Assembly (NCBI GenBank): GCA_035533595.1
Contig: DATLTN010000010.1
Coordinates: forward strand, 1 to 38,975
Direction: 5' to 3'
Origin: Acidimicrobiales bacterium
GTDB taxonomy: Bacteria > Actinomycetota > Acidimicrobiia > Acidimicrobiales > Bog-793
DNA: 38,975 nucleotides
The notes below the pieces were generated by a model. It saw nothing but the letters and a program-made list of their open reading frames with translations, was not told where the DNA came from and searched no databases. Below, one piece after another: positions 9,937-38,656 of this stretch; position 1 is the stretch's first letter; the number at the start of each line of letters is the position of its first letter. Made by a program: the position numbers and the translations under genes.

Positions 9937-10734
9937 GTGGCTGACCACCTGCGCCTCCCGCGGGCGGCCGCCGTCGCCGGTGAGCCGAGCGAGGCGCACG
10001 GCCGCGTTCGGCGCCACGACGCGATGACCTGGCTCGCGCTCGGCCTCGTCGTCGCGCTCGTCCTCGCCTGGAGCACCCACGCCGACCACTCCACCGCGAG
10101 CACGGCCGGGGTACGCAAGGGGGCGAGCCGGCCGGCCGCCCCGCCGCTCCACGCACGCGGTGCCGCGGTCGGCCCCACAAAGAGCCCGACGAACGCCGCG
10201 ATGGTGCTCGACCCCCTCGGAGGGCTCACGATCGACCGCTGGTCGGTCGCTCCCCGCCGCGCGGCGCACTCCCCCGCCGCGGTTCGGGCCACGACCCCGA
10301 CCACGAGCGCCCCGGCCGCGATCACGAGCACCACCGTGCCCGCGAGCACGCTCCCCGCGAGCACGGTCCCGGCCACGACGGTCCCGCCGAGCACGCTCGT
10401 GCCGGCCACACCCGCCCGCGCGGCGTCGCCGAGCGGGCGCACCGACGAGCTCGCCGGCACCCTCTCGTTCCCCTCCGACGTCGCGACGACCTACTTCGAG
10501 AAGGGGGCCGGCGGCGCGCTCGTGGTGTCGGGCACCTGGGCGACGGGGCGCCCGCTCGTCCTCTCGCTCACCTGCGGGGGCCTGCACCGTGAGGCGAGCG
10601 GCAGGGGCGGCACGAGCGTCGAGGACCCCGCGACGCACGCTGACTGCAGCGTCGTCATCGCCGAGCCGGCGGGGGCGACCTGGTCGGCGACCTACCACCT
10701 CACGGTGCGGGCCCTCGCCGGCGGGGGCCAATGA
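9937..10734 (+). CDS. Membrane-anchored Ser/Thr/Pro/Ala-rich protein
   Basis: This is an unrecognised 265-residue protein. Residues 31-46 form one hydrophobic helix after a basic stretch (GRVRRHDAM), indicating an N-terminal signal anchor with the rest outside. Residues 119-158 are a low-complexity linker of repeated P-A-S/T-T-L/V units, typical of extended, possibly glycosylated stalks. The C-terminal domain (about 170-265) is beta-rich and contains two cysteines (C213, C237) that could form a disulfide. The GTG at 9937 is the first start after an in-frame TGA at 9907; the ATG at codon 30, directly before the helix, is an alternative. Its stop overlaps the next ATG in ATGA, so it is probably coupled to, and may work with, the LysM/BTAD membrane protein. 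Confidence 0.75.
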   Translation: MADHLRLPRAAAVAGEPSEAHGRVRRHDAMTWLALGLVVALVLAWSTHADHSTASTAGVRKGASRPAAPPLHARGAAVGPTKSPTNAAMVLDPLGGLTIDRWSVAPRRAAHSPAAVRATTPTTSAPAAITSTTVPASTLPASTVPATTVPPSTLVPATPARAASPSGRTDELAGTLSFPSDVATTYFEKGAGGALVVSGTWATGRPLVLSLTCGGLHREASGRGGTSVEDPATHADCSVVIAEPAGATWSATYHLTVRALAGGGQ

Positions 10735-13109
10735 GCAGGGCCCACCGCCGAGGCCGCGACCTGCGCGGCGGCCTCGGGGCGCTCGGCAAGTGCCTGCTCC
10801 TGCTGTTCGCCGTCCCCGTGGCGATCGTCCGCCTGTGGGCCGAGCGGCCGCTCGGCCCGCTGCGCCTCTCGCCGGGGAGCCTGTCAAGCCTCACCGTCTG
10901 GCTGCACCTCGTCCTCATCGTCCTCGGCCTGTTGTGGGTGGCCGCCGCCGCGAGCCTCGTCCGTGAGCTCGCCGGCGCCTTCGGCGGGGGGGCGACGAGC
11001 AGCTCGTGGTCTGGCCGCTGGGCCGCGGCCGTCGCGGCGCTCGTCCTCGCCTCGACGGCGAGCGCCGTCGCCCTCGCCGCCCTCCCCCGCCCGGGTACCG
11101 CCCCCCCGGCCGCGGTCGCGCCGCAGGCGCGAGCCGCCGCCCGGGCGACACCCCTCGTCGTCGCCCCGGGCGAGTGCCTCGCCGACGTCGCGGCGCGCGC
11201 CCTCGGGAGTCCCGCCCTCTGGCCCGAGCTGGCGGCGGCGAACCGGGAGCTCCCCCAGCTACCCGGGCGCTTCGTCGACCCCGCGCTGCTGCGCGACGGC
11301 TGGTGCCTGCGGGCGCCCGCGGCGGCCGACCTCGCCGCCGCGGGCGCCCCGCCCAACGCCACGCCCGCGGGGACCCTCGCCGAGCTCTCGCTGCTCGGCA
11401 TCGGCACGATCGGCACCGCCGCGCTGGTGCGGCGGGTGCGGCTACTGCGACGCGCCGCCGCCAGCCTGCGGCGCGTCGGGGAGCGCCCACCGCGGCCGAG
11501 CGAGGAGGGCGCCGGCGTGGAGAGCCTGCTCGCGCCCTTCGCCGAGGGCACGCTGCTCGACTGGATCGAGTGCGCGAGCCGGCTGCTCGGCTCGCTCGCC
11601 GAGGCGCACGCGGTCCCCGAGGACGTCCTCCTCGTGCGTGCCGGGCCCGAGGCGGTGGACGTCGTCTTCGCCACCGCCGCGCCGGCCGCGGCACCCTTCG
11701 TCGGCCACGAGGGGGGCCGGATCTGGTCGCTCGCCCTCGACGAGGACCTCGGCCACCTGCGCAGGCTCGCCGCGGGCGGCCGCCGCCACCTGCGCGCGCT
11801 CGTCCCGGTCGGCGAGGCGGCGGGGAGCGCCTACCTCCTCGGCCTCGGCCGGGGGCGCCGCCTCTCGCTCGAGGGCGGCCCCGAGGAGGTCGCAGCGATG
11901 CTTGCCGGCCTCGTCGAGAGCCTGCGCGTCCTCCCCTGGGCAGGTGAGCTCAGCGTCGAGCTCGTCGGCCTCGACCCACCGCCGAGCGCCGAGCAGTCCT
12001 ACCAGCTGTTCGCGAGCACCCCCGAGGGGCTGCGCGAGCTGGCGGGACGGCGGGGGGGCGCCTCCGCCGGCTCCTCGCTCGTGGTCGTCGCCCCCGGCGG
12101 TCCTGCGGTCGACGAGGCGCTGCTCGCGGCGGTCGGCGCCGTCGCCGGCGTGGTCGCCTGCGGCGGCCCCGCGAGCGCGGTGCTGCGACTCACCGGTGGC
12201 GGCCGCGGCGAGCTCGCCCCCTTCGGCCTCGATCTCGCCGTGCCCGCCCCCGGCGCCGAGCAGCGGCGGCGCTTCGACCTTCTCCTCGCCGAGGCGAGCC
12301 GGCCACCGAGCCTCGTCGCCACCTCGTACCTCGGGGGGGCGGCGCCGGCGGGCGGGCTGCCCGAGCGCGGCGCGGTCGAGGTGCGCCTCCTCACCGGCTC
12401 CCCGGCGCTGGTCGGGGCGGTGGGCGCGCCCGCCGAGCGTGATGCCGCGCGGGTGACCGAGCTCGTCGCCTACCTCGCCCTGCACCCCGAGGGCGTGGGC
12501 CGCGGGGCGGTCACCGCCGCCCTCTTCGGGCGGGCCACCCTGCACGGGGCGCCGGCCCGCCTCGACCTCCTCCTCGCCGCGGCGCGCCGCTGCCTCGGGA
12601 GCGGCGGGGACGGCCGCGGCCGCCTCGAGCTGCACGACGACGAGCACCTCCGCCTCTCGACAGAGGTGACCCTCGACGCCGAGCGCTTCCGGGCCGCCGC
12701 CGCGCACGCCCGCGCCCTCGGCCCTGACGCGGCGCGCGACCTCCTCGCCGCCGCCTTCGAGCTCCTCGACCCGGCCGCGCTCGCCCGCTGGCCGGCGTGG
12801 GACTGGCTCGCCGCCGACGGCCATCTCGAGGCGCTCCGCAGCGACGTCGTCGACGCCGCCCACCACCTCGCGACCCTCGCCACGGCCGGCGGCGAGCACG
12901 CCCTTGCCGCGGGCATCCTGCGCGGCGCCCGCCTCATCGAGCCGGCCTCGGAGATCCTCGCCCGCGACCTGATGGTCCTCGAGGCCGAGCGCGGTGACAC
13001 ACCGGCCGCGGCGCGCGCCTACGCAGAGCTCGAAGCGGCGCTCGCCGCGCTCGGGGGGAACGAGCCCTCGGCCGAGAGCCGCGCCCTGTACCTGCGCCTC
13101 GCCCGGTAG
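10731..13109 (+). CDS. Membrane-bound LysM-like / SARP-BTAD domain protein
   Basis: The 792-residue product is an unusual composite. Three hydrophobic helices occur at about 20-36, 57-77 and 97-118. A LysM-like segment at 141-194 (PLVVAPGECLADVAARALG ... WPELAAANRE) has two Cys (C149, C192). A fourth hydrophobic stretch lies at about 217-233 and is followed by basic residues. Residues 240-540 are a long Ala/Leu-rich region of unknown fold. Residues about 549-645 resemble the winged-helix domain of SARP/AfsR regulators (VTELVAYLALHPEGVGRGAV). The last 145 resemble a bacterial transcriptional activator domain of TPR-like helices. Related LysM-BTAD proteins occur in actinobacteria, sometimes near Flp/Tad pilus genes; none are visible here. 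A membrane-tethered regulator or scaffold is inferred. Its 4-bp overlap with the preceding gene implies coupling. Confidence 0.8.
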   Translation: MSRAHRRGRDLRGGLGALGKCLLLLFAVPVAIVRLWAERPLGPLRLSPGSLSSLTVWLHLVLIVLGLLWVAAAASLVRELAGAFGGGATSSSWSGRWAAAVAALVLASTASAVALAALPRPGTAPPAAVAPQARAAARATPLVVAPGECLADVAARALGSPALWPELAAANRELPQLPGRFVDPALLRDGWCLRAPAAADLAAAGAPPNATPAGTLAELSLLGIGTIGTAALVRRVRLLRRAAASLRRVGERPPRPSEEGAGVESLLAPFAEGTLLDWIECASRLLGSLAEAHAVPEDVLLVRAGPEAVDVVFATAAPAAAPFVGHEGGRIWSLALDEDLGHLRRLAAGGRRHLRALVPVGEAAGSAYLLGLGRGRRLSLEGGPEEVAAMLAGLVESLRVLPWAGELSVELVGLDPPPSAEQSYQLFASTPEGLRELAGRRGGASAGSSLVVVAPGGPAVDEALLAAVGAVAGVVACGGPASAVLRLTGGGRGELAPFGLDLAVPAPGAEQRRRFDLLLAEASRPPSLVATSYLGGAAPAGGLPERGAVEVRLLTGSPALVGAVGAPAERDAARVTELVAYLALHPEGVGRGAVTAALFGRATLHGAPARLDLLLAAARRCLGSGGDGRGRLELHDDEHLRLSTEVTLDAERFRAAAAHARALGPDAARDLLAAAFELLDPAALARWPAWDWLAADGHLEALRSDVVDAAHHLATLATAGGEHALAAGILRGARLIEPASEILARDLMVLEAERGDTPAAARAYAELEAALAALGGNEPSAESRALYLRLAR

Positions 13110-13186: not shown

Positions 13187-14293
13187 ATGCGGGTCGGGAT
13201 CCCACGGGAGCTGAAGGACAACGAGTTCCGCGTCGCGATGACCCCGGCGGGGGTGCGCGAGCTCACCCGCCACGACCACGAGGTGCTCGTCGAGCAGGCC
13301 GCCGGAGCCGGCTCCTCCTTCACCGACGAGCAGTACGCCGCGGCGGGCGCCCGCCTCGTCGCCGACGTCGACGAGCTGTGGGCGGCCTCGGACCTCGTCT
13401 GCAAGGTGAAAGAGCCGATCGCCGACGAGTTCGCGCGCCTCCGCGAGGGGCTCGTGCTCTTCACCTACCTGCACCTCGCGGCCTCCCGGCCCTGCACCGA
13501 CGCGCTCGTGGCCGCCCGGACGACGGCCATCGCCTACGAGACGGTGCAGCTCGCCGACGGCACCCTGCCGCTGCTGGCGCCGATGAGCGAGATCGCCGGC
13601 CGCATGGCGCCGCTCGTCGGCGGCGCCTGCCTGCAGCGCCCCGAGGGAGGGCGCGGGGTGCTGATGAGCGGGGTGCCCGGCGTCCGCCCGGCGCGCGTCG
13701 TCGTGATCGGCGCCGGCGTCGCCGGGGCGAACGCGGCGGCGATCGCGGTCGGCATGCACGCCGATGTCGTCGCCATCGACCGCGACCTGGCGCGCCTTCG
13801 CGAGCTCGACCGCGTCTACCAGGGGCACCTCGAGACGATGGCCTCCTCGACGCACGCCATCGAGGAGGCCTGCCTCGGCGCCGACCTCGTGATCGGCGCC
13901 GTCCTCGTCGTCGGGGCGCGCGCCCCGCACCTCGTGAGCAACGAGCTGGTCGCCGCGATGCAGTCCGGGAGCGTGCTCGTGGACATCGCCGTCGACCAGG
14001 GCGGCTGCTTCGAGTCGAGCCGCCCGACCACGCACTCCGCCCCGACTTTCGAGGCCTTCGGCTCGCTCTTCTACTGCGTCGCGAACATGCCCGGCTCGGT
14101 CCCGAACACCTCCACCCACGCCCTCACCAACGCGACCCTCCCCTACAGCCTCGAGATCGCCAACCGCGGCTGGCGCGAGGCGGCAGCGGCCGACCCCGCG
14201 CTCGCAAGGGGCGTGAACACCGTCGCCGGGGCGGTGGTGAACGAGGCCGTCGCCGAGGCGCACGGCTTGGCGTTCAGCCCCTTCGCCGCCTGA
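13187..14293 (+). CDS. ald: Alanine dehydrogenase
   Basis: This enzyme interconverts L-alanine and pyruvate plus ammonia with NAD(H). Its 368 residues match the family length. Key residues are present: R15 in the opening IPRELKDNEFRVAMTP, K75 in CKVKEP, H96 in YLHLA, the NAD-binding GAGVAG (174-179), and D269 in VDIAVDQGG. The C-terminal NTSTHALTNATLPY motif is complete. The start ATG at 13187 follows CGAGAGG. It appears monocistronic: a 77-bp gap separates it from the LysM/BTAD gene, and a strong hairpin follows the stop. A role in alanine catabolism, or in redox balance at low oxygen, is known for actinobacterial homologues. Confidence 0.97.
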   Translation: MRVGIPRELKDNEFRVAMTPAGVRELTRHDHEVLVEQAAGAGSSFTDEQYAAAGARLVADVDELWAASDLVCKVKEPIADEFARLREGLVLFTYLHLAASRPCTDALVAARTTAIAYETVQLADGTLPLLAPMSEIAGRMAPLVGGACLQRPEGGRGVLMSGVPGVRPARVVVIGAGVAGANAAAIAVGMHADVVAIDRDLARLRELDRVYQGHLETMASSTHAIEEACLGADLVIGAVLVVGARAPHLVSNELVAAMQSGSVLVDIAVDQGGCFESSRPTTHSAPTFEAFGSLFYCVANMPGSVPNTSTHALTNATLPYSLEIANRGWREAAAADPALARGVNTVAGAVVNEAVAEAHGLAFSPFAA

Positions 14294-14401: not shown

Positions 14402-15535
14402 GTGCCAGACCACGCCAAAGCTTCCCGGAACCCCCTGTCCAACCTGAGCCGCAACCAGTGGATCGCCGTCGGCGTCGTCGTCGCGGTCCTCGGGGCGGTG
14501 ATCGGGATCGTCGCCACCTCCGGCTCGAGCCCGACCAAGAGCGCAGGAGGGCCGACGACGTCGTCGAGCACGACGACGACCCTGCCAAAGCTCGGGCGCA
14601 ACATCTGCCCGCTCACCGACCTCCCGGCCGCAGGCGGCCTCGACCCGCAGCGCCCCGCGACGCTCGTGAAGATCGGCAACGAGCCCGGCACCGGCCTCGC
14701 CCGCCCGCAGGGCGGCCTCAATGAGGCGGACATCGTCTTCGACACGCCCGCCGAAGGCTTCATCATGCGCTACATGGCCGTCTACCAGTGCAACAACGCG
14801 ACGGCGATCGGCCCCACCCGCTCGGTGCGCTGGGTCGACTACCACCTGGCGCGCATGTTCCTGCACCCGATCCTCGCCTTCGCCGGGGGGATCGACCCGA
14901 ACGTCAACCAGGTGCTGAAGGACAAGTGGATCGAGCCCGCCGACCTCATCGGCGCGCAGTCCAATGCCGCGGGGCGGGTCAGCACCCGCAGCGGTGACGA
15001 CAGCCTGTTCACGAGCACCGCGCAGCTCTACGGCCTCTACAAGAAGGCCGTCGAGCCGCCGCCCCCGGTCTTCCAGTTCGGCGCCAGCATCCCCGCGAGC
15101 GCGGCCCCGACCGCGACGGCGCAGATCAACTTTTCCTCCGGCACCGACGTCGTCTGGAAGTGGAACGCGGCGGGCAACGACTGGATCCACTCCTACACCG
15201 ACACCGGGACCGACACCGACACCGACAACAACCAGCCGGTGACGACGACGAACATCGTGGAGATGGTCGTCAGCTACCGGATCGGCCCCTACAGCGAGCA
15301 CGGCGGACCGGGCAACGGCGACGTCGAGAGCCAGACCGTCGGCTTCGGTCAGGGCTACGTGCTGCGCAACGGCAAGCACATCGCCGTCACCTGGCACCGC
15401 AAGGACCTGATCTCCGGGCTCAGCTTCACCGACGCGCAGGGCAACGCGGTGACCCTCGCCCCCGGCCGCACCTGGGTCGAGCTGATCCCCGACATCGTCG
15501 CCCACCGCGCCGGGAACATCACCTTCACCTCCTGA
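14402..15535 (+). CDS. DUF3048 domain-containing membrane-anchored protein
   Basis: The 377-residue product has a hydrophobic anchor at 20-39, then a Ser/Thr linker (about 41-61), then a DUF3048 module. Diagnostic segments are CPLTDLPA, PATLVKIGNEPG, GLNEADIVFDTPAEG, a GPTRSVRWVDYHLARMF stretch, and the C-terminal GRTWVELIPD. Bacillus YerB is a lipoprotein relative; this one has no lipobox Cys and is anchored by its helix instead. The function of DUF3048 is unknown. A short acidic TDTGTDTDTD tract sits near residue 265 between two beta-rich parts. The GTG start at 14402 fits the near-leaderless promoter. Strong hairpins lie on both sides, so the gene is likely transcribed alone. Confidence 0.88.
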   Translation: MPDHAKASRNPLSNLSRNQWIAVGVVVAVLGAVIGIVATSGSSPTKSAGGPTTSSSTTTTLPKLGRNICPLTDLPAAGGLDPQRPATLVKIGNEPGTGLARPQGGLNEADIVFDTPAEGFIMRYMAVYQCNNATAIGPTRSVRWVDYHLARMFLHPILAFAGGIDPNVNQVLKDKWIEPADLIGAQSNAAGRVSTRSGDDSLFTSTAQLYGLYKKAVEPPPPVFQFGASIPASAAPTATAQINFSSGTDVVWKWNAAGNDWIHSYTDTGTDTDTDNNQPVTTTNIVEMVVSYRIGPYSEHGGPGNGDVESQTVGFGQGYVLRNGKHIAVTWHRKDLISGLSFTDAQGNAVTLAPGRTWVELIPDIVAHRAGNITFTS

Positions 15536-17716: not shown

Positions 17717-18190
17717 ATGCTCGAAGAACGGCGCCTCAGCCTGGACGAGGCCGACGCGGTGATCAGGGCCACCTTCGCAGCGTCGAGCGCGGCGGGCCAC
17801 CGCGGCGTGGCGGTGGTGGTGACCGACAAGTACGGGGAGATCATCTCCGGCGCCCGCATGGACGGCCTCGCCCCCCGCTACTTCAAGGCGGCGCACCGCA
17901 AGAGCTACACCGCCGCGGTCTTCGAGCGCGACACCGCCGACGTCCTCCACTTCTGGCAGCGCCAGGAGGCGGCCGGCCACCGCGGCCCGAGCGACTGGAA
18001 CGACCCGATGTTCACCACCCTCCCCGGCGGGATCACCGTCCGTCATGGCGAAGCCGTCGTCGGCGGGATCGGCGTCGCCGGCGGCTCGGCCGCTCCGGTG
18101 AGCGACGGCGACTTCGCGGAGGTGGCAATCGCCGCCCTCGGCCCCGCCTTCCGCCACGAGGAGCTGCACCAGCCCCCCGCCCCCGGCTGA
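17717..18190 (+). CDS. GlcG/HbpS-like heme-binding-domain protein (DUF336)
   Basis: The 157-residue product has the DUF336 pattern: LDEADAVIRATFAAS, VAVVVTDKYGEIISGARMDG, ...FKAAHRKSYTAAVF, TLPGGITVRHGEAVVGGIG, and a final GVAGGS. The fold includes Streptomyces HbpS, which binds heme, and GlcG/PduO-C proteins, which may bind heme or cobalamin. There is no signal peptide. The ATG at 17717 follows a GGGAGGG sequence; the frame is open from 17681 but the upstream ATG lacks a good ribosome-binding site. It faces a smaller paralogue 22 bp away. Confidence 0.88.
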   Translation: MLEERRLSLDEADAVIRATFAASSAAGHRGVAVVVTDKYGEIISGARMDGLAPRYFKAAHRKSYTAAVFERDTADVLHFWQRQEAAGHRGPSDWNDPMFTTLPGGITVRHGEAVVGGIGVAGGSAAPVSDGDFAEVAIAALGPAFRHEELHQPPAPG

Positions 18191-18212: not shown

Positions 18213-18602
18213 CTAGGGCGCGGCCGCGCCGATCTCGGCGCACTCGGCGTCCGCCTCGGGGGCCGCGCCGGCGACGCCGATCCCGCCGACGACGAGCTCG
18301 CCCTCGAGGACGGGCACGCCGCCCGGCATCACCAGCACGTCGTAGAGGCCGGCGTGGCGCGCCGCGGCGAGCAGCTCGGGGGGCATCGCCGTCATCGCCG
18401 CGGTCGGGCGACGGTAGATGGCCGCGGTGTAGGCCTTGTCGATCGCCATCTGCGGGGTGAGCTTGTGGGCGCCGTCCATGCGGACGAGGCCGAGCAGGTA
18501 GCCGCCGTCGTCGACGACTGCGATCGAGACCGCGAGGCCGCGCTCGCCCGCCGCGGCGAGCGCCGCAGCGAGGAGCGCCCGTGCCCGTTCCTCACCCAGC
18601 AT
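18213..18602 (-). CDS. GlcG/HbpS-like protein (DUF336), second copy
   Basis: The 129-residue product has the same fold: ARALLAAALAAAGERGLAVSIAVVDDGG, LVRMDGAHKLT, AIDKAYTAAIYRR, MPGGVPVLEGELVVGGIGVAGA. The strand-turn V-x-D-x-G-G and the PGGVP...GGIGVAG motif match typical GlcG more closely than the larger paralogue does. I chose the ATG at 18602 (AAGGAG six bases before) over the ATG at 18608. A -10-like TAGCGT lies upstream at 18632-18627. The two paralogues share little identity beyond the motif, so they are not a recent duplication. Confidence 0.88.
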   Translation of the reverse strand: MLGEERARALLAAALAAAGERGLAVSIAVVDDGGYLLGLVRMDGAHKLTPQMAIDKAYTAAIYRRPTAAMTAMPPELLAAARHAGLYDVLVMPGGVPVLEGELVVGGIGVAGAAPEADAECAEIGAAAP

Positions 18603-27821: not shown

Positions 27822-29381
27822 GTGGGGCGATTTCGACGGCTGCTCGTGGTGTTTTTGAGCGCGATTTCCATGACGTTCGCAATACCGGCGGCATCGGCGC
27901 TCGCCAGCACCTCGTCGACCGGAGCGATCAAGCATGGCGGCACCCTGAACGTCCTTGACATCGGTGGCGAATACCGCTCGCTGAGCTCGCTGCAGAAGAG
28001 CGGCCTCGGAAACTTCCTCAAGTACTCGGCGGTCTACCAGAACCTGTTCACGTTCAACTCCGCCGGGCAACTCATCCCGCAGCTGGCGCTCTCGTACCAG
28101 TACTCCAGCAACAACACGGTGATCACGGTCCAGCTCCGCCGTGGTGTCCACTTCCAGGACGGCACCCTCATGAGCGCCCAGGCGGTGGCCTTCGACATCA
28201 ACGAGTGGGCGAACCCCGCCGTGAACTCCGAGTGCGCCCCCTACCTCACGAACCTCACCTCGGCGGTGGCGTCGGGCGCCAACACCGTCGTGATCACGTT
28301 CAGGGTCCCCTACGGCGCGTTCATGCGCATCGTGAGCGGCACGATCTGCGGCGCCGTCGTCTCCCCGACGGCGGTCCAGACCGAGGGGCTCACCGGCTTC
28401 GGCACCCACCCGGTCGGCACCGGCCCCTACGCCTTCGCGTCCGAGGTGCTCGGCACCTCCTCGACGTGGACCAAGTGGTCCGGCTACTGGGACAAGCGGA
28501 ACGCGGGCTACTACAACACGATCACCGTGTCGGCCATCGACAACGACCAGAGCTGTCTCGCGGCAGTCGAGTCGGGCACCGCGCAGGTCTGCGCCAACGG
28601 TGACCCCACGGACTACCTCTCCGTCCGGCACAACCCGCGGGTGCACACGATCGTCGGTCCGGCGGTGGCCGTCGAGGACATCTCGTTCAACCAGCAACAG
28701 GCGCCTTTCAACAACCTGCTCGCGCGCCGGGCCGTCGCGGAGGCGATCGACACCGCGGCGATCTCGAAGAGCCTCTACCGCGGCGTGGTGCCGGCGACCC
28801 AGTCGATCCTCGCGCCGAGCGAGTTCGGCTTCCCGGGCCTGAAGGTGAAGGGTTACCCGAAGTACAGCATCGCCAACGCGCGCGCTGACGTCGCGCAGCT
28901 TCCGGGGCACACGCTCTCCTTCACGCTGGTCTGTCAGACGGTGCCGGGCGAGATCACCCTCGCAGAGGCGCTCCAGTCCCAGTTGGCGAGCGCCGGGATC
29001 ACGATGACGATCAACCCCGAGGACATCGTCACGATCCTCAGCCAGATCCGTCAGAACCAGTACCAGGCGTCGCAGCTCGGCACCACCGGCTACCCCGACC
29101 CCGATGTCGTCTACTACCGCAACTACAACTCGGCGAGCAGCAACGACAACACGGCGACCAACGACCCGATCATCAACCAGTACTCCCTGAAGGGACGCGA
29201 GACGGTCTCCGGGCCGCAGCGGCTGGCGCTCTACAACAAGGTCACCGCCGAGGTGGCCAAGGACCTTCCGAGCGTGCCCCTCTTCCCGCAGCCGCTGTAC
29301 TACTTCGTCTCTCCGAAGCTGCGAGGGTTCAACCCGGTCGGCTCCGAGATCATCCAGTGGCAGGACGTGTACTCGGCGTAG
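27822..29381 (+). CDS. ABC transporter substrate-binding protein (peptide/nickel family 5)
   Basis: The 519-residue SBP_bac_5 protein captures the ligand outside the cell for the permeases encoded downstream. An N-terminal signal (about 1-28, RFRRLLVVFLSAISMTF then ASALAS) has no lipobox Cys. RRLLV gives a weak Tat-like motif. Family features are KHGGTLNVLDIGG, LALSYQYSSNNTVITVQLRRGVHFQDGT (split here by family consensus at LRRGVKFHDG), GTGPYAF, and the C-terminal PLFPQPLYYFVSP. A disulfide is possible between several exported cysteines. The GTG at 27822 has AAGGGGGG upstream. A large hairpin follows the gene, as usual where binding protein must exceed permease. The ligand may be a peptide, cyclic amide or other solute. 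Confidence 0.93.
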   Translation: MGRFRRLLVVFLSAISMTFAIPAASALASTSSTGAIKHGGTLNVLDIGGEYRSLSSLQKSGLGNFLKYSAVYQNLFTFNSAGQLIPQLALSYQYSSNNTVITVQLRRGVHFQDGTLMSAQAVAFDINEWANPAVNSECAPYLTNLTSAVASGANTVVITFRVPYGAFMRIVSGTICGAVVSPTAVQTEGLTGFGTHPVGTGPYAFASEVLGTSSTWTKWSGYWDKRNAGYYNTITVSAIDNDQSCLAAVESGTAQVCANGDPTDYLSVRHNPRVHTIVGPAVAVEDISFNQQQAPFNNLLARRAVAEAIDTAAISKSLYRGVVPATQSILAPSEFGFPGLKVKGYPKYSIANARADVAQLPGHTLSFTLVCQTVPGEITLAEALQSQLASAGITMTINPEDIVTILSQIRQNQYQASQLGTTGYPDPDVVYYRNYNSASSNDNTATNDPIINQYSLKGRETVSGPQRLALYNKVTAEVAKDLPSVPLFPQPLYYFVSPKLRGFNPVGSEIIQWQDVYSA

Positions 29382-29415
29382 GTCTGAGGATCGCACCCCG
29401 AGCATCAGTGTTGAT

Positions 29416-29454
29416 CGCACCGCCGTCCCCACTTGTATCGGGGACGGCGGTGCG
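29416..29454 (+). terminator. Intercistronic hairpin between binding protein and permease genes
   Basis: Fifteen-bp perfect arms (CGCACCGCCGTCCCC and its complement) flank a nine-base loop ACTTGTATC, with no U-tract. It probably attenuates transcription and/or protects the 3' end of the binding-protein mRNA, giving the usual excess of that subunit. Confidence 0.75.
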
Positions 29455-29537
29455 GCAACTCGAGCGGATCCGCGCCCCGCGCATCACGCAGCTGGCCGAC
29501 GAATGACGACCGACCCGTCAACCTCGAAGGGGTGTAA

Positions 29538-30506
29538 GTGAGGTACGTCCTGGATCTCGTGGGGAGACGTATCCTCCAGGCGATCCCCGTCATGCTCGGC
29601 GTGTCGTTGATCGTCTTCTCGCTTCTCAGCCTTCTCCCCGGGAGCGCCGCGCTCGCGATCCTCGGACCGGGGGCGACGAATGCGCAGGTCGCACACCTCT
29701 CCCAGCAGCTCGGCCTCAACCAGCCCTTCGTGGAGCGGTACCTGATCTGGGTGGGCCACGCGATCACCGGCAACCTCGGCACCTCACTCCTCACGAACCA
29801 GCCCGTGATCGCCGAGATCGAGCAACGACTGCCGGTGAGCTTCGAGATCATGGTGATCTCCTACATCCTGTCCCTCGGCACCGCGATTCCCGTCGCCATC
29901 CTCGCGGCGCGCCGGCCGCGTGGCATTGCCGACTCGATCAACCGTCTGTTCTCGACGGTCGCCCTCTCGGTCCCCGGGTTCGTCACCGCCCTGCTGCTCA
30001 TCCTCGTCTTCTCGGTCAAGCTGGGGCTGCTCCCGACAGAAGGGTTCGTGCCGCTGGCACACGGGCTGGTCCCCAACGTGAAGAGCCTGATCCTTCCTTC
30101 GGCCTCCGTCAGCGTGGGGCTGTTCGCGAACTACAGCAGGATCCTCCGGTCCGACATGATCGACCAGCTCCGGAACGAGGACTACGTGCTCACGGCGCGA
30201 GCGAAGGGGATCGGCCAATGGAGGATCCTGTTCCTCCACGTCGCCAAGAACTCCCTCTTCCCCCTCATCACCGTCGTCGGGACCAACTTCGGCTACCTCA
30301 TCGGCGGCGTCGTCGTCGTGGAGAACGTCTTCGGGCTCCCCGGCATGGGGCAGCTGATGCAGTACTCGATCCTCAACCGGGACTACACGGTCGTACAGGG
30401 CGAGGTCATCCTCATCGCCGTCGCCGTGATCCTCATGAACCTCGTCACCGACCTCGCCTACATCTTCCTCGACCCGAGAGTGCGCTATGGCGCTACCGGT
30501 AACTGA
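29538..30506 (+). CDS. ABC transporter permease, DppB/OppB type
   Basis: The 322-residue inner-membrane subunit has six predicted helices. The N-terminus VGRRILQAIPVMLGVSLIVF is typical, and the region GLNQPFVERYLIWVGHAITGNLGTSL is the conserved external loop. The EAA motif reads ARAKGIGQWRILFLHVAKNS, with the helix after it FPLITVVGTNFGYLIGG, followed by VENVFGLPGMGQL. It pairs with the DppC-type subunit encoded next, whose ATG lies 20 bp inside this gene. The GTG at 29538 follows GAAGGGG. Confidence 0.95.
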   Translation: MRYVLDLVGRRILQAIPVMLGVSLIVFSLLSLLPGSAALAILGPGATNAQVAHLSQQLGLNQPFVERYLIWVGHAITGNLGTSLLTNQPVIAEIEQRLPVSFEIMVISYILSLGTAIPVAILAARRPRGIADSINRLFSTVALSVPGFVTALLLILVFSVKLGLLPTEGFVPLAHGLVPNVKSLILPSASVSVGLFANYSRILRSDMIDQLRNEDYVLTARAKGIGQWRILFLHVAKNSLFPLITVVGTNFGYLIGGVVVVENVFGLPGMGQLMQYSILNRDYTVVQGEVILIAVAVILMNLVTDLAYIFLDPRVRYGATGN

Positions 30507-31377
30507 CAACCTGGCTCAGACGGAGCCAGCCGAGGCGACACTCCCCTTCTGGGCGCGCTCGCACTTCCGGATGCGGCGCAGCGCCCTCGCCCTCTACATC
30601 CCGCTCGGTGCGCTCATCCTGCTCGTCGTGGCGTGCTTCTTCGGGCCGTGGATCCTGCACCTTCCCCCGGCGAGCTTCGCCAACATCGCGAACAGCAACC
30701 TGCCGCTCGGATCCCCCGGGCACCTTCTCGGGACGGACCAGCTCGGCAACGACATGCTGTCCCGGACGCTCGTCGGCGGGCGGGTGTCGATGGTCGTCGG
30801 CTTCGGCGCGACCCTCGTCGGGTTCGTGATCGGGACCTCCATCGGCGTCGTCGCGGGCTACTTCGGCGGCGCGGTCGAGACGGTGCTGATGCGCATCCTC
30901 GACATGGTGCTCGCCTTCCCCTCGCTCATCCTCGCGATGACGCTCGTGGTCTTCCTCGGGCCGAGTGAGCGCAACGAGATCATCGCCATCTCGTTCTTCG
31001 CGATCCCGAACTACGCCCGGCTCTCGCGGGCTGCCACCCTCAAGATCCGCGAACGTGAGTACGTGCTGGTCGGGAGGGTGATCGGCGCCGGCCCCCGGCA
31101 CATCATGATCCGCCACGTCTTCTCGAACGTGCTGCCCTCGCTGCTCACCATCGTTCCCTTGACGGTCGCCGTCGCGATGATCATCGAGGCGACGCTGAGC
31201 TTCCTCGGCCTCGGCGTGCGCCCGCCCACGCCGAGCTGGGGAAACATGATCGCCCAGGGTCAGGCCACGATGTCGATCGCGCCCCAGGACATCATCATCC
31301 CCGCCGTCGGGCTCTTCCTCACGGTGCTCTTCTTGAACCTGACCGCGGAGCAGTGGCGCCTCCGGATCTCGCAGTAG
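30487..31377 (+). CDS. ABC transporter permease, DppC/OppC type
   Basis: The 296-residue second permease has the N-terminal helix (LYIPLGALILLVVACFFGPW), the periplasmic HLLGTDQLGNDMLSRTLVGGR motif typical of the DppC group, and an EAA loop near EREYVLVGRVIGAGPRHIM. The end ATLSFLGLGVRPPTPSWGNM is diagnostic. It overlaps dppB-like by 20 bp and precedes the ATPase genes by only 8 bp, so the five genes read as one operon. Confidence 0.95.
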   Translation: MALPVTDNLAQTEPAEATLPFWARSHFRMRRSALALYIPLGALILLVVACFFGPWILHLPPASFANIANSNLPLGSPGHLLGTDQLGNDMLSRTLVGGRVSMVVGFGATLVGFVIGTSIGVVAGYFGGAVETVLMRILDMVLAFPSLILAMTLVVFLGPSERNEIIAISFFAIPNYARLSRAATLKIREREYVLVGRVIGAGPRHIMIRHVFSNVLPSLLTIVPLTVAVAMIIEATLSFLGLGVRPPTPSWGNMIAQGQATMSIAPQDIIIPAVGLFLTVLFLNLTAEQWRLRISQ

Positions 31378-31385
31378 GTCGACGA

Positions 31386-32453
31386 ATGCACCCCGCGACC
31401 GGCGACGACGTGCACAGCTCGGGCACCGCCGCGCCGGCGGCCGTCTCGGTCGCCACCGCCGACGCTCCGGCGCTGCCCGGCACCGAGGGCCACGAGGCCC
31501 TGATCGAGGTGCGCGACCTGAAGGTGACGATCCCCTTTCGCGGACAGGACGTCTACGCGGTGCGTGGCGTCACCTTCGACGTGCATCGCGACAGCACCGT
31601 CGTCCTCGTGGGTGAGTCCGGATCGGGCAAATCGGTCACCGCCCGATCGATGCTCGGGCTGCTCCCGCCGGCGACGACGATCAGCGGCTCGGTGAAGTTC
31701 GAAGGGCACGAGCTCGTCGGCCTCTCCGAGAAGCAGTGGCGGCAGCACCGCGCGACGGGGATCTCGATCGTCTTCCAGGACCCCACTCGCTCCCTGAACC
31801 CGACGATGCGGATCGGGCACCAGATCGGTGAGGGGATCCGCAGGCACTTCGGCGTCTCCCGGGCCGCCGCCCTGGACCGGGCGACCGAGCTCCTCGACAT
31901 GGTCGGCATCGGGTCGCCGAAGGAGCGCGTCCGGGACTACCCGCACCAACTCTCCGGTGGCATGCGCCAGCGGGTGATGATGGCGATCGCCATCTCGTGC
32001 GACCCGAAGGTGCTGATCGCCGACGAGCCGACCACGGCGCTCGACGTCACGACCGAGGCGCAGATCATGGAGCTGCTGCTCTCGCTGCAGAGCCAGCTGC
32101 ACATGGGCCTGCTCCTCATCACCCACAACATGGGGCTCGCCTTCACCTACGGCGACGAGATCGCGGTGATGTACGCGGGGCGCATCGTCGAGAGCGCTCC
32201 GAAGGAGGAGCTCGTCCGCCACGTGCGGATGCCCTACACGAACGGCCTCCTCGGCTCCCTGCCCGCTGTCGATGACCTCCCCCATTCGCAGCTCGCCGCG
32301 ATGCAGGGGCGCCCGCCGGACGCGATGACGACGCCGCGTGGATGTGCGTTCCAACCGAGATGCCCGATCGCGGAGGCGAGGTGCACCGAACAGGCCCCTC
32401 CGCTCGCGGTCCTCGACGGCACGCACGCCTGCGCCTGCTGGTACCCCCTGTAA
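31386..32453 (+). CDS. ABC transporter ATPase, DppD/OppD type
   Basis: The 355-residue ATPase has Walker A GESGSGKS (76-83), Q131 of the Q-loop, signature LSGGMRQR (189-196) and Walker B LIADEP (210-215) with TTALD after it. A C-terminal oligopeptide-transporter extension (about 300-355) has four cysteines ([17 protein letters not shown] ... CAC), as in OppD/DppD proteins. The first 38 residues are an Ala-rich extension before the usual start [11 protein letters not shown]; the ATG at 31386 has no strong ribosome-binding site and may be coupled to the preceding stop. It would form a heterodimer with the next ATPase. Confidence 0.95.
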
Positions 32454-32481
32454 CCCCGGAGCCCCTGGAGACCGCCTGCAC

Positions 32482-33543
32482 ATGGCCACGAGCGGAGTTG
32501 ATGCGGTGCGACAGACGGCGCGCCAGGCGGGCACCACGGCGCCCCTGCTCGACGTCCGGCACGTCGAGCGGACCTTCGTCGTGAACACGCCGGGACAGGG
32601 GCGGCGGAAGATCCAGGCCGTGGCGGACGTCTCGTTCGACATCTGGCCCGGAGAGACGGTCGCGCTCGTCGGCGAGACGGGGTGTGGCAAGTCGACGCTC
32701 GCGCGCTCGATCCTGCAGCTCCCCCGCCCCGAGGCGGGCGAGGTGGTCTTCAAGGGGGCGGACCTCGTGCAGCTCCGACATGCCGCGCTGCGCAACGCGA
32801 TGCAGGGCATGCAGGTCGTCTTCCAGGATCCCTTCAGCTCCCTCAACCCCCGCTGGAACGTGCTGGAGCTCGTCGGGGAGCCGTTGGCGGTGCACGACGT
32901 CGGGACCAAGCAGGAGCGCACGCGCCGCGTCGAGGAGCTCCTCGAGGCGGTCGGCCTCGATGCACGGATCCACGGTCGGCGTCGACCGAGGGAGCTCTCC
33001 GGCGGCCAGTGCCAACGGGTCGCGATCGCACGCGCGCTCACGCTCAGCCCGAACCTCATGGTCTGCGACGAGGCGGTCTCCTCGCTCGACGTGTCGATCC
33101 AGGCGCAGATCCTCAACCTCTTCGAGGACCTGCGGACCGACTTCGACCTCTCCTACCTCTTCATCACCCACGACCTCTCGGTGGCCCGCCACATGAGCGA
33201 CCGCATCGCGGTCATGTACCTCGGCAAGATCGTCGAGCTCGCGCCCTCCACCGAGCTCTTCTCGAACCCCCTCCATCCCTACTCCGCGGCACTGCTCTCC
33301 TCGATGCCCCACTCCGACGGCACCGCGACCCCGGACCGCATCCGCCTCACCGGCGACATCCCCTCCGCCGCCAACCCCCCGAGCGGCTGCCGCTTCCGCA
33401 CGCGCTGCCCGTTCGCGCAACAGCTCTGCGCGGACGTCGAGCCCCCGCTCAACGCGGTCAGCGAGGGGCGACAGGTCGCCTGCCACTTCCCGCTCGAGCG
33501 CCACACCGCCGCGGCGGCACCGGCCGGCACGCGGGTCGACTAG
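32482..33543 (+). CDS. ABC transporter ATPase, DppF/OppF type
   Basis: The 353-residue partner ATPase has Walker A GETGCGKS (64-71), signature LSGGQCQR (172-179) and Walker B LMVCDEAVSSLD (192-203). The C-terminal extension again contains a CRFRTRCPFAQQLC cluster. Asp-to-Cys exchange just before DE (VCDEAVS) and GQCQ in the signature are common in this subfamily. The ATG at 32482 is preferred over longer readings because the sequence before it is compositionally unlike the family; a weak CTGGAG lies 11-16 bases upstream. After it comes a 148-bp gap before the beta-propeller gene. Confidence 0.95.
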   Translation: MATSGVDAVRQTARQAGTTAPLLDVRHVERTFVVNTPGQGRRKIQAVADVSFDIWPGETVALVGETGCGKSTLARSILQLPRPEAGEVVFKGADLVQLRHAALRNAMQGMQVVFQDPFSSLNPRWNVLELVGEPLAVHDVGTKQERTRRVEELLEAVGLDARIHGRRRPRELSGGQCQRVAIARALTLSPNLMVCDEAVSSLDVSIQAQILNLFEDLRTDFDLSYLFITHDLSVARHMSDRIAVMYLGKIVELAPSTELFSNPLHPYSAALLSSMPHSDGTATPDRIRLTGDIPSAANPPSGCRFRTRCPFAQQLCADVEPPLNAVSEGRQVACHFPLERHTAAAAPAGTRVD

Positions 33544-34798: not shown

Positions 34799-36850
34799 TC
34801 AGGAATCCTCGTAGCGAAGGACGAGATTGCCGAACTCGTCGAGGGTCGCGGACCAACGCGGGGGGACGACCGTGGTGGTATCCAGCTGCTCGACGACCGC
34901 GGGCCCGGCGACGCGCTGGCGGACGGTGAGCTCGTCGCGTCGGACGACCTCTGCGGTGAAGGTCCCTTCGGCAAAGTGCAGCTCGCGCTGGGTCGCGGTG
35001 CGCTGCGGCGAGGCCGCACCGTCCTTCACGAACGGCTGGTACTGCGGCATGTCGACGACGGCGCGCAGGCGGTAGCTGACGAGCTCCACCGCCTCGTCGA
35101 CCGCCTTGTGGCCGTAGACGACCTCGTGGATGTCGTGGAACTGCCGGGTGACGTCGTCACAGACCTGCGCGTCGGTGGGGTCGGCGACCGGGACCCGGAT
35201 CTCGAAGCCCTGCCCGGCGTAGCGTGCGTCGACCTCACGGACCATCCGCACCTCTTCGGGTCCGAATCCCTGGGCGCCGTACTCCTCGATGGCACGCATC
35301 TCCAGGTTCTTGAAGTTGCGGCCGATGGTGTCGGAGTCGATCCGGTCGAGACGGGCGATGTCGGTCTGCACGTAGTCCTGGGCGACGTCGGTGCACAGCA
35401 GCCCGAGCGCTGCGAACACCCCCGGGGACTCGGGGACGATGACCTCACGGATCCCCAGCTCCTCGGCGACGGCCGCGACGTGCACCGGGCCCGCTCCTCC
35501 GCAGCCGACCAGCCGGCAGTCCATGATGCTCACGCCCCGTCGCGCGGCCACGACGCGGATCGCGTCGGCCATGTGCGCGTCGTTGACCTGCACCATGGCA
35601 GAGGCCGCGGCGACGGTCGTCATGCCGAGCGGCTTCGCCACCTTCTCCTCGACGACGGAGTGCGCCCGCTCGACGTCGAGCGTGAGCTTGCCGCCGAGGA
35701 AGAACTCGGGGTTCAGGTAGCCGAGCACCACGTCCGCGTCGGTGATCGTCGCCTCCACTCCCCCGCGGCCGTAGGCAGCCGGCCCGGGGAGGGCCCCGGC
35801 GCTCTGCGGGCCGACCCGCAGGCGGCCGCTGCCCTCGACGCGGGCGATGGTCCCCCCGCCCGCGCCGATGGTCTCGATGTCGAGCATCGGAACGTAGATG
35901 TCGTAACCGCAGACCTGACCCTCGGTCGCCTCGAGCGCGACGCTGCCCTGCACGAAGGCGATGTCGCAGCTCGTACCGCCGAGGTCCATCGTGATGACAT
36001 TCTCGATCCCCGAGGCGCTGGCGAGTCGCCGCGCCGCCTGCACCGCCGCCGCCGGCCCGGAGAGGAGGGTGTGCACGGCCTTTCCGCCGGCGCGCGCCGC
36101 GTCGAAGGGCATCACCCCGCCGTTCGACTCCATGAGGAAGGTCTTCTTCGTCGTCACCCCGGAGGCCACGAGCCCCGAGGCGAGGTGGTCGAGGTACTCC
36201 ACGAGCACGGGCTCGAGGTAGGCGTTGAGGATCGTGGTCGACATGCGCGGCCACTCCCGGATGCGCGGGAGGATGTCGACCGAGCAGAAGACCCGGCATC
36301 CGGGGACCTCGCGCTCGATGATCTCCTTCGCCCGGTGCTCGTTCGCCGGGTTGGTGAAGGAGAACATGAAGCAGATCGCGACGGCCTGCAGCTGCCGCTC
36401 AGCGATCAGCCGTGCCGCCGCGTGGATGTCCTCCTCATCGAGCGACACGACGACGTCACCGTTGCGATCGATGCGCTCCCCGACCTCGAAGACGTTCAGC
36501 TCGTCGATGAGGGGAACGATGCGGGACCGGTTGTAGGAGTTCCGCTGGCCGATGGTGCGCTGGGTCTGGACCTGGGTGACGCCCTTCATGTGTCGCGTCA
36601 CTAGGAGGCCGCAGTTGGCCCCTGCGAGCTGGATCAGCGCGTTCGTCGTGGTCGTCGTCCCGTGGAGGAAGGCGTCGACCTCACCGGGAACGAGGCCGTC
36701 GTCGACGAGCACCTGGATGCCGTTCAGGATCGCGACGGCGGGGTTCTCCGGTGTGCTCGGCACCTTCGTGATCATGAGCTCGTTCCGTCGGTCGTCGAAC
36801 ACGACGAAGTCCGTGAACGTCCCGCCTACGTCAACGCCTATCGTCGGCAC
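34799..36850 (-). CDS. Hydantoinase/oxoprolinase A subunit (HyuA family)
   Basis: The 683-residue product has an actin-like ATPase fold. The first phosphate loop is VDVGGTFTDFVVF (6-18) and the second is MDLGGTSCDIAFV, with AGGGTIARVE later. Family members hydrolyse ATP to open or carboxylate cyclic amides and related groups: N-methylhydantoinase, 5-oxoprolinase and acetone carboxylase. The segment HGTTTTTNALIQL and the central YDIYVPMLDIETIGAGGG are characteristic of HyuA. The GTG at 36850 is chosen because GGAGG lies just upstream. It is encoded 78 bp downstream of the partner B subunit on the same strand, so the two make one complex. The substrate is unknown. Confidence 0.93.
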   Translation of the reverse strand: MPTIGVDVGGTFTDFVVFDDRRNELMITKVPSTPENPAVAILNGIQVLVDDGLVPGEVDAFLHGTTTTTNALIQLAGANCGLLVTRHMKGVTQVQTQRTIGQRNSYNRSRIVPLIDELNVFEVGERIDRNGDVVVSLDEEDIHAAARLIAERQLQAVAICFMFSFTNPANEHRAKEIIEREVPGCRVFCSVDILPRIREWPRMSTTILNAYLEPVLVEYLDHLASGLVASGVTTKKTFLMESNGGVMPFDAARAGGKAVHTLLSGPAAAVQAARRLASASGIENVITMDLGGTSCDIAFVQGSVALEATEGQVCGYDIYVPMLDIETIGAGGGTIARVEGSGRLRVGPQSAGALPGPAAYGRGGVEATITDADVVLGYLNPEFFLGGKLTLDVERAHSVVEEKVAKPLGMTTVAAASAMVQVNDAHMADAIRVVAARRGVSIMDCRLVGCGGAGPVHVAAVAEELGIREVIVPESPGVFAALGLLCTDVAQDYVQTDIARLDRIDSDTIGRNFKNLEMRAIEEYGAQGFGPEEVRMVREVDARYAGQGFEIRVPVADPTDAQVCDDVTRQFHDIHEVVYGHKAVDEAVELVSYRLRAVVDMPQYQPFVKDGAASPQRTATQRELHFAEGTFTAEVVRRDELTVRQRVAGPAVVEQLDTTTVVPPRWSATLDEFGNLVLRYEDS

Positions 36851-36928
36851 CCGACCTCCAGATCCGCTGTGATTCCCACATTGAAAAGCGACCACACCCG
36901 GCTCCGCGCGACGCGCCGGGCGGCCAAC

Positions 36929-38656
36929 TCAGCTGTTGCTTGCGACCGCCGGGTGCGCGAGGTCCCTGCGATGCTCAGCGGTGGCTTCGGGATCGATCTC
37001 ACCTGCGGCATCGAAGACGACGCCGTAGTCGTCGGTCGCCGATCGACGCGAGACCCGACCGATCGCGAGGTCTCGCGCCACGGCGGCGATCTCGCGACGT
37101 AGGGGATCGCCGTAACCACCGGCCCCGGAGCCCTCGACCATGAACGAGTCACCGGCGGCGAACTGGTAGTTGCCCGCGATGGGGACCGCCCGCTCGTCGG
37201 CCGTCCCGCTGTCCAGCACGAAGCGGCTCAGCGAGCCGGGGTGCCCCCCGGCGATCCCGTGCGCGGGGAACCTGCCGCGGTCGGCGCGGCGGTTCAGCGT
37301 CGCGGGGGCGAGGCACTCGTATTCCCGGCGGTAGCTGCACCCGCCGCGGAACTCCCCTGCTCCCCCGCTGTCCTCGATGAGCTCGAAGCGCTTGATCCTC
37401 ATCGGGAACTGGAACTCGAGGATCTCGACCGGCGTGATGCCGAGCGGCCCCGTTCCGTCGGTCCCGTCGTGGCCGTTCCAGGCACCGCCACCGGTCCCGA
37501 GCACCTCGTACTGCATCGAACGACTGGTCTTGCCCCCGAGGTCGTCCGACCACAGGAGCGCCAGCGTGCCGCCGCTCCCCCCGCCGTTAGCGACGGCCTT
37601 CTCCGGCGCGAAGTGGCCGAGCGCCTCCTGGATCAAGTGCTGCAGCCGGTGGTTCACCACCGAAGCGGCACCGACGGGCGCGGGGAAGTGCGGGCTGAAG
37701 ACGCTGCCCTCGCGAACGATGACCTCGACGGGCCGCCGCATGCCGTCGTTGAACCCTGCGCTCGGATCCGTCATCGCCAGCAGTGCGCCGAACACGGCCC
37801 CCTCCATGTAGGGCTTCTGCATGTTGACGGGGCCGTCGGTCTGGTCGTCGCTCCCGGAGAAGTCGAAGACGATCGTGTCGCCGGACTTGGTGACGGTGAG
37901 CTCATAACGGACCGGCGTGTCGAGGTTGACGCCGTCGTTGTCGAGGAACCCCTCGACGGTCACGCTGTCGTCGGGCCACCGTTCGAGGCTGCGGCGCAGG
38001 GTCCGGTCCGAGTAGTCGAGCATCGCCTCGTAGGAATCGAACAACGCTTCGACCCCGTACAGCTCGGCGATCTTGCAGATCCGCTCCCGCCCGACCAGCG
38101 TGACGCCGATCTGGGCGCGCATGTCCCCGATGAACAGGTCGGGGTTGCGCACGTTGTTGGAGATCATGCTCAGGATGTTCTCGTCGAGCTCGAATCCCTG
38201 CCCCTCGATGTGCCCGATCTTCAGGATCGGGATCAGCAGCCCCTCCTGGAAGAGGTCGGTCGACGTCATGGAGGCGCTGCCGACCACCGCTCCACCGACA
38301 TCGGACTTGTGCGCGGTGGTGCAGGAGAAGGCGATGTGGCGGCCGTTCAGGTAGACCGGCAACATCACCATGAGGTCAGGGGTGTGCTGGACCCCAGCCT
38401 GGTAGGGATGGTTGGTGATGTAGATGTCACCGTCGGCGATCGCGTGGCTCGCCATCAGGTTCTGCAGCGCAAACCGGTAGTGCAGGTGGCCACCGGTCAC
38501 GAGCTCGCCACGGTGGGTCGTCGCCAGGTAGCTGCAGTCCCGCGACTCGCGCATCAGGGTCGAGTACGCGGAGCGATAGAGCAGGTGCAGCATCTCATCG
38601 CTGAGCGAGTCGATCTTGCTCCTGATGAGTTCGGTCACGACTGGGTTCGCTGGCAC
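36929..38656 (-). CDS. Hydantoinase/oxoprolinase B subunit (HyuB family)
   Basis: The 575-residue product has the HyuB signature. SPTVVTE-like VVTELIRSKIDSLSDEM opens it, RESRDCSYLATTHRGELV and TNHPYQAGVQHTPDL follow, and a His-rich TTAHKSDVGG is likely metal-binding. The middle has VFDFSGSDDQTDGPVN and NGGGSGGT. The end has GGAGEFRGG and GSGAGGYGDP, both hallmark glycine motifs of the family. It works with the ATPase subunit HyuA encoded next. The GTG at 38656 is preceded by GAGGGAAGAG. It lies 160 bp from the end of the upstream gene, a gap without recognisable features. Confidence 0.94.
   Translation of the reverse strand: MPANPVVTELIRSKIDSLSDEMLHLLYRSAYSTLMRESRDCSYLATTHRGELVTGGHLHYRFALQNLMASHAIADGDIYITNHPYQAGVQHTPDLMVMLPVYLNGRHIAFSCTTAHKSDVGGAVVGSASMTSTDLFQEGLLIPILKIGHIEGQGFELDENILSMISNNVRNPDLFIGDMRAQIGVTLVGRERICKIAELYGVEALFDSYEAMLDYSDRTLRRSLERWPDDSVTVEGFLDNDGVNLDTPVRYELTVTKSGDTIVFDFSGSDDQTDGPVNMQKPYMEGAVFGALLAMTDPSAGFNDGMRRPVEVIVREGSVFSPHFPAPVGAASVVNHRLQHLIQEALGHFAPEKAVANGGGSGGTLALLWSDDLGGKTSRSMQYEVLGTGGGAWNGHDGTDGTGPLGITPVEILEFQFPMRIKRFELIEDSGGAGEFRGGCSYRREYECLAPATLNRRADRGRFPAHGIAGGHPGSLSRFVLDSGTADERAVPIAGNYQFAAGDSFMVEGSGAGGYGDPLRREIAAVARDLAIGRVSRRSATDDYGVVFDAAGEIDPEATAEHRRDLAHPAVASNS

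Follow-up and report, generated by a model that had tools for sequence, protein, structure and literature searches.

Two overlapping genes of an Acidimicrobiales bacterium may constitute a free-standing envelope module descended from the gene that closes actinobacterial Tad loci, in which the product of the second gene would serve as the scaffold; this reading is held here with medium confidence. The pair lies in a stretch of 38,975 nucleotides (contig DATLTN010000010.1 of GenBank assembly GCA_035533595.1), referred to below as the window, which corresponds to contig C10 of an assembly (G000) of 2.79 Mb in 73 contigs with 96% completeness. Gene 1 (9937..10734, + strand) encodes a stalked exported protein and has homologues in 14 genomes, while gene 2 (10731..13109, + strand) encodes a 792-amino-acid membrane protein that belongs to the Tad-locus LysM-BTAD family. 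This family has so far been annotated by its LysM or BTAD domain only; through the present analysis its large middle part gains a name, that of the EccC-type degenerate ATPase domain, and a LysM-BTAD protein could be shown to exist without a pilus. The occurrence of soluble DNA-reader-like forms, Tad-linked forms and pilus-free forms provides a natural comparison by which the question of regulator or scaffold becomes directly testable.

Both genes were open reading frames (ORFs) with a coding-type G+C distribution by codon position, the third-position G+C being 0.94 in gene 1 and 0.95 in gene 2. The ATG of gene 2 at 10731 and the TGA of gene 1 at 10732-10734 form a four-base ATGA overlap, and the two translationally coupled ORFs described in the initial annotation could thus be confirmed. 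The gene 2 protein consists, in order, of three transmembrane (TM) helices, a LysM domain, a fourth TM helix, a middle domain of about 300 residues, a winged-helix-like segment and a BTAD domain. The NCBIfam search returned no match, and a consensus scan revealed neither a sigma-70-like promoter nor an intrinsic terminator.

Relatives of gene 2 in other genomes and in plasmids of Cutibacterium acnes, Streptomyces, Microbacterium, Rhodococcus fascians and Brevibacterium were located at the end of a Tad locus with the order SAF/CpaB, CpaE-like, CpaF, TadB, TadC, pilin, TadE, TadE-like, TadG and LysM-BTAD, where the last gene often overlaps TadG by a few bases. The gene 2 protein could be aligned with these Tad-linked members over its full length at 24-29% identity, and profile matches were obtained as well. 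Approximately 200 actinobacterial plasmid records matched the Tad-locus LysM-BTAD protein, some of them in LysM only; a plasmid search using the gene 2 protein of the window as the query returned nothing. The C. acnes gene at the Tad end is listed as 'LysM, BTAD' without comment (PMC3666418), and the literature searched on LysM, BTAD and Tad yielded this single table entry and no discussion of the role of the protein. A maximum likelihood tree of 26 proteins separated the ten pair proteins from all Tad-linked ones with a support of 100/99. The tree was midpoint-rooted and by itself does not show whether the pair or the Tad-linked state is older; the occurrence of the Tad type in a wide range of taxa points to the latter as ancestral.

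The genome holding the window contained no T2SSF domain and no CpaF match, and FtsK was its sole FtsK/SpoIIIE protein. That the pair might be the sign of a Tad locus here was considered and, with no T2SSF or CpaF match, rejected. The link to Tad pilus genes raised in the initial annotation thus holds for the protein family, which does belong to Tad loci, but not for the genome of the window. Among 24 genomes of the family to which the window belongs, nine carried the pair only, 12 a CpaF-type Tad set only, one both and two neither (Fisher P 5e-4, uncorrected for kinship). Strict mutual exclusion was also rejected since G016 has both, and a distinct, more distant CpaF/T2SSF set was present in three of the ten pair-holding genomes (G013, G016 and G019), so that the pair replacing Tad is a tendency and not a rule. 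The pair could be imagined as a decaying remnant of a lost Tad locus that is now functionless, which would fit a genome that has no Tad genes yet keeps a soluble Tad-type BTAD gene. This is very improbable: the pair proteins form a deep monophyletic clade, the pair occurs in a second family as well, the long frame and the coupling are intact, and 39-45% identity is maintained across genera in LysM, TM4, the middle core and BTAD.

Conservation of the pair could be followed across genomes, which were mostly draft assemblies with gene starts assigned by a simple codon-usage caller. Fifteen loci, distributed over 14 genomes from two families, had the two genes side by side, ten of them with a start-stop overlap; the initial annotation had staked its reading on such conservation. 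Within the family of the window, gene 2 was found with a Ser/Thr/Pro stalk gene directly upstream in ten genomes (11 loci). The C-terminal domain of the stalked protein, referred to below as the head, was present in eight of these 11 loci and absent in G001, G003 and G008, the partners of which also had no LysM. This joint absence (L037, L040 and L043 in G003, G001 and G008) possibly represents a single joint loss. A class-wide search with the head as the sole query led to another family, represented by three genomes. The next gene again encoded a TM-LysM-TM-...-BTAD protein in each of them, with a GTGA or ATGA overlap in two. In G021 (L081:7869-9937, G021:C178), a stalked two-Cys protein was coupled to a short partner in which TM helices and the middle domain are present but LysM, winged helix and BTAD are missing; this unit directly follows a full LysM-BTAD gene.

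The middle domain of gene 2 (residues ~250-535; 11478..12335, + strand), which had been described as about 300 residues with no recognised fold, turned out to be recognisable as a relative of the degenerate ATPase domain of EccC, a component of the type VII secretion system (T7SS), on the basis of profile comparison and a search of the PDB. An hhalign comparison using 55 relatives matched EccC over 152 columns (P 2.2e-5, probability 76%), beginning at the strand that precedes the P-loop and ending with the one that follows Walker B. The score of 43.6 compared with at most 22.5 in 60 block shuffles and 19.5 for the reversed profile, ranged from 38.9 to 47.3 over 20 row jackknives, and the match was repeated with a separately built alignment of 28 rows. 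When the 28-row profile was searched against 177,635 PDB sequences, EccC proteins ranked best (EccC of Thermomonospora, 4nh0, 4.5e-6 summed over domains; EccC5, 8rin, 4e-4; cryo-electron microscopy chains, 0.006). No signal was obtained against the profiles of FtsK proper, CpaF, alanine dehydrogenase, phosphofructokinase or pirin; in the comparison with 55 relatives, all four unrelated families used were negative. Removal of the insert columns reduced the EccC score to 25.3, barely over the shuffles, and comparison with the DUF region of EccC alone gave 36.8, slightly over its block shuffles (31.7), a small margin because the shared core is one block of 52 columns. PDB profile searches with eight to nine sequences yielded designed helical repeats and no other match for either the middle or the C-terminus. 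An AlphaFold model of residues 237-792, to which two homologues had been added, had a predicted local distance difference test score (pLDDT) below 50 over model residues 1-427, and therefore no fold of the middle domain or the winged helix was deduced from it.

Walker A was absent from the middle domain in 55 of 55 relatives. Its position is occupied in the window by GGPEEV (11874-11891) and in the EccC5 DUF by GEREQVL. In published work on EccC5 (PMC11154593), this DUF is regarded as a degenerate ATPase domain in which no nucleotide is bound and which possibly mediates contacts between protomers. The position of the degenerate domain right after the TM helices, as in EccC, together with the origin in Tad loci, could also be taken to mean that gene 2 works in the manner of the EccC membrane portion or of the Tad-locus protein, as part of an export or pilus-like machine with its ATPase encoded elsewhere, exporting or assembling the stalked protein or other substrates. 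The CpaF/T2SSF sets of the three pair-holding genomes mentioned above would suit such a machine; the genome of the window, however, has no T2SSF, no CpaF match and no FtsK/SpoIIIE protein other than FtsK, and the signal anchor of gene 1 is ordinary, so that Sec should suffice for its export. Participation in an export machine is accordingly judged unlikely.

Hydrophobic segments of the gene 2 protein were located at residues 15-33, 59-77 and 100-118 (TM1-TM3; 10773..11084, + strand) and at residues 215-233 (TM4), the last being followed by an Arg-rich, predicted cytoplasmic stretch (11373..11480 together, + strand). Basic flanks mark the N-terminus, the TM2-TM3 loop and the stretch that follows TM4. 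By the positive-inside rule, the LysM is thus predicted to be extracellular and all parts after TM4, that is the C-terminal half, cytoplasmic. The LysM itself (residues ~142-197; 11154..11321, + strand) matched a profile made from the LysMs of Tad-type relatives with 42.9 bits (E 1.9e-14, Z=10), in support of the LysM-like segment noticed initially, though Pfam reported no LysM in this protein. Within the LysM, Cys149 recurs in several pair proteins in a GECL/GDCL context (window 11172-11192), and the window protein carries a second cysteine, Cys192 (window 11298-11318). The two may possibly form a disulphide or make contact with the cysteines of the head.

The BTAD domain (residues 648-789; 12672..13097, + strand) exceeded the Pfam cut-off (23.9 bits vs 22.1), and its model of TPR-like helices was closest in fold to EmbR (Z 13.0, 124 residues, 3.4 A), followed by AfsR (11.7), with other TPR-like proteins scoring nearly as high. 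The winged-helix-like segment (residues ~548-640; 12372..12650, + strand), with a putative recognition helix RLDLLLAAARRCLG at 12558-12599 (+ strand), gave no Trans_reg_C match in Pfam. A profile-profile comparison of the family winged helix produced a weak signal (score 24.5, P 0.002; the highest of 40 shuffles reached 16.9). Of the SARP-type winged helix with BTAD proposed in the initial annotation, the BTAD was therefore upheld, and a winged helix is probable from the architecture and this modest profile signal.

These domains could support a one-component envelope sensor, in which the LysM, the head or both would perceive the wall or surface and a membrane-tethered winged helix-turn-helix (wHTH)-BTAD unit would bind DNA and recruit RNA polymerase. 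Membrane-tethered DNA binding occurs, with other folds, in regulators of the ToxR/CadC type. The wHTH-BTAD arrangement is the core of SARP regulators, the predicted topology places it in the cytoplasm, and soluble relatives have a strongly conserved wHTH, so that DNA reading is likely to be ancestral. One such relative is the second BTAD gene of the same genome (L054:7947-9332, G000:C30), which encodes a soluble protein of 461 amino acids, adjoins rimP/nusA/IF-2 and groups with the Tad-linked, fabI-adjacent BTAD clade. In that soluble clade, wHTH helices 2-3 showed the highest identity among well-sampled regions (62%), compared with 25-39% in the middle domain. The pair clade, by contrast, had mean pairwise identities of 45% in LysM, 42% in the TM4 region, 40% in the middle core, 39% in BTAD, 36% in both TM1-3 and wHTH, 32% in wHTH helices 2-3 and 30% in the C-terminal part of the middle domain. 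When the window protein was compared with its own clade, wHTH helices 2-3 formed the lowest-conserved region (29%), and its recognition helix has neither the N nor the S of the family pattern N..S..R..LG. Moreover, the head protein of G021 is coupled to a partner that has no wHTH-BTAD at all. The identity pattern is what would be expected if the soluble clade depended on DNA reading and the pair clade had been relieved of this constraint. By this argument from conservation, with the wHTH helices ranking highest in the former clade and among the lowest in the latter, a repurposed envelope scaffold holding the stalked head protein is favoured over a one-component transcription sensor, which is considered possible but doubtful. 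The alternative of sensor or repurposed scaffold left by the initial annotation is thereby tilted towards its second half.

The gene 1 protein is 265 amino acids long when read from the GTG at 9937 and 236 when read from the ATG at 10024; both starts have to be considered since relatives carry a basic stretch before the TM helix. Its layout comprises a short basic N-terminus, a signal-anchor helix (WLALGLVVALVLAW), a Ser/Thr/Pro-rich stalk of about 110 residues and a C-terminal two-Cys domain of about 95 residues, in line with the Ser/Thr/Pro linker and two-Cys domain first noted from the sequence. The signal-anchor TM segment (MTWLALGLVVALVLAWSTHA) occupies 10024..10083 (+ strand), and a WLALGLVVA pattern was conserved ahead of the stalk in the homologues. 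The cysteines of the head (10438..10731, + strand) are residues 213 and 237 of the 265-residue ORF. Nine head sequences, taken from DNA, were aligned and used for the later searches; G26, L40, C46, C70 and Y86 were invariant among them, and the two cysteines included here are likely to form a disulphide. Modelled alone, the head adopted an eight-stranded beta-sandwich (pLDDT 75.8) with the C-terminal beta-domain of Tk-SP as its best fold neighbour (Z 11.9, 2.0 A, 90 residues), followed by the GOLD domain of TMED1 (Z 11.6) and clostridial collagen-binding/PPC-type domains (Z about 10; 10.4 for that of ColG). Foldseek alone gave no match below 1e-3 for the model, and the head sequence had no match in Pfam and no sequence match in the PDB.

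According to the proposed scaffold reading, the LysM of gene 2 would hold peptidoglycan outside the cell, while the four TM helices would put the EccC-type degenerate domain, which is not expected to bind ATP, and the TPR-like BTAD module into the cytoplasm. The cytoplasmic modules and the TM bundle may oligomerise or dock partners rather than hydrolyse ATP or mainly read DNA. Gene 1 would supply a co-translated single-pass partner, the stalk of which projects the small beta-sandwich head through the wall. Gene 1 fills the gene position that TadG has in Tad loci, and its product may touch the gene 2 protein; a similar contact is presumed for TadG and its own partner. In a wider and more tentative view, the Tad loci of Actinomycetota and the T7SS might share a dead-FtsK-like membrane module, which has been released here from the pilus as a wall-spanning two-protein surface unit made of a LysM-anchored dead-ATPase/BTAD scaffold and a stalked beta-sandwich head. 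Several observations weigh against the scaffold reading. The pair proteins of this family retain BTAD and the winged-helix-like segment, although a pure scaffold could do without them. Three pair loci have no head domain and four pair proteins no LysM, so that neither element is indispensable. The EccC match was not significant from pair-clade sequences alone (P 0.07), and its extension to the window protein thus runs through homology with the Tad-linked relatives.

The pair is flanked by a divergent pirin gene (8741-9682/9688, - strand) and, on the 3' side, by an alanine dehydrogenase gene (13187-14293), and these surroundings were retained at several pair loci. An exported-type protein gene follows at 14402-15535, the product of which we take to resemble DUF3048 proteins. 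In some relatives, a third gene encoding a protein of about 220-250 amino acids that resembles a sigma-70 region 4-like DNA-binding protein was observed upstream of the pair (L038:6727-7446, L039:1790-2440 and L041:12619-13368). A similar gene was found near a Tad locus (L087:16062-16856), and none stands beside the pair of the window. Elsewhere in the window, inspection by eye pointed to two convergent side-by-side genes (17717-18190, + strand; 18213-18602, - strand), presumably for small proteins of the GlcG/HbpS type, and to two adjoining genes (34799-38638, - strand) that we assume to encode the A and B subunits of a hydantoinase/oxoprolinase. These come after what appears, again by eye, to be an oligopeptide ABC transporter set (27870-33543).

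The closest known counterpart of gene 2 is the LysM/BTAD protein of the Tad end, represented by PAGK_2369 (WP_015588743.1) of the Cutibacterium acnes plasmid NC_021086. It has the same domain order, and its gene likewise overlaps that of an upstream single-pass exported protein. There, the partner is TadG and the operon includes CpaF, TadB/C, pilin and TadE, whereas gene 2 is partnered by the stalked two-Cys protein, and Tad genes are absent from its surroundings and from the rest of the genome. With EccC (PDB 8rin, 4nh0), the middle part of gene 2 shares a degenerate, Walker-A-less, FtsK-like domain just after the TM helices, predicted to be cytoplasmic in gene 2; unlike EccC, gene 2 carries none of the ATPase domains D1-D3 and has LysM and BTAD instead, and the genome, with FtsK as its one FtsK/SpoIIIE match, does not supply the active D1 and further ESX genes of a T7SS. 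The SARP regulators EmbR and AfsR resemble gene 2 in having a BTAD fold after a winged-helix-like segment, from which gene 2 departs by being membrane-bound and LysM-bearing and by the poor conservation of the recognition helix in the pair clade. Finally, PPC/collagen-binding-type and GOLD domains share the beta-sandwich fold of the head model, while the head itself is set apart from them by having no sequence-family match and by its two invariant cysteines.

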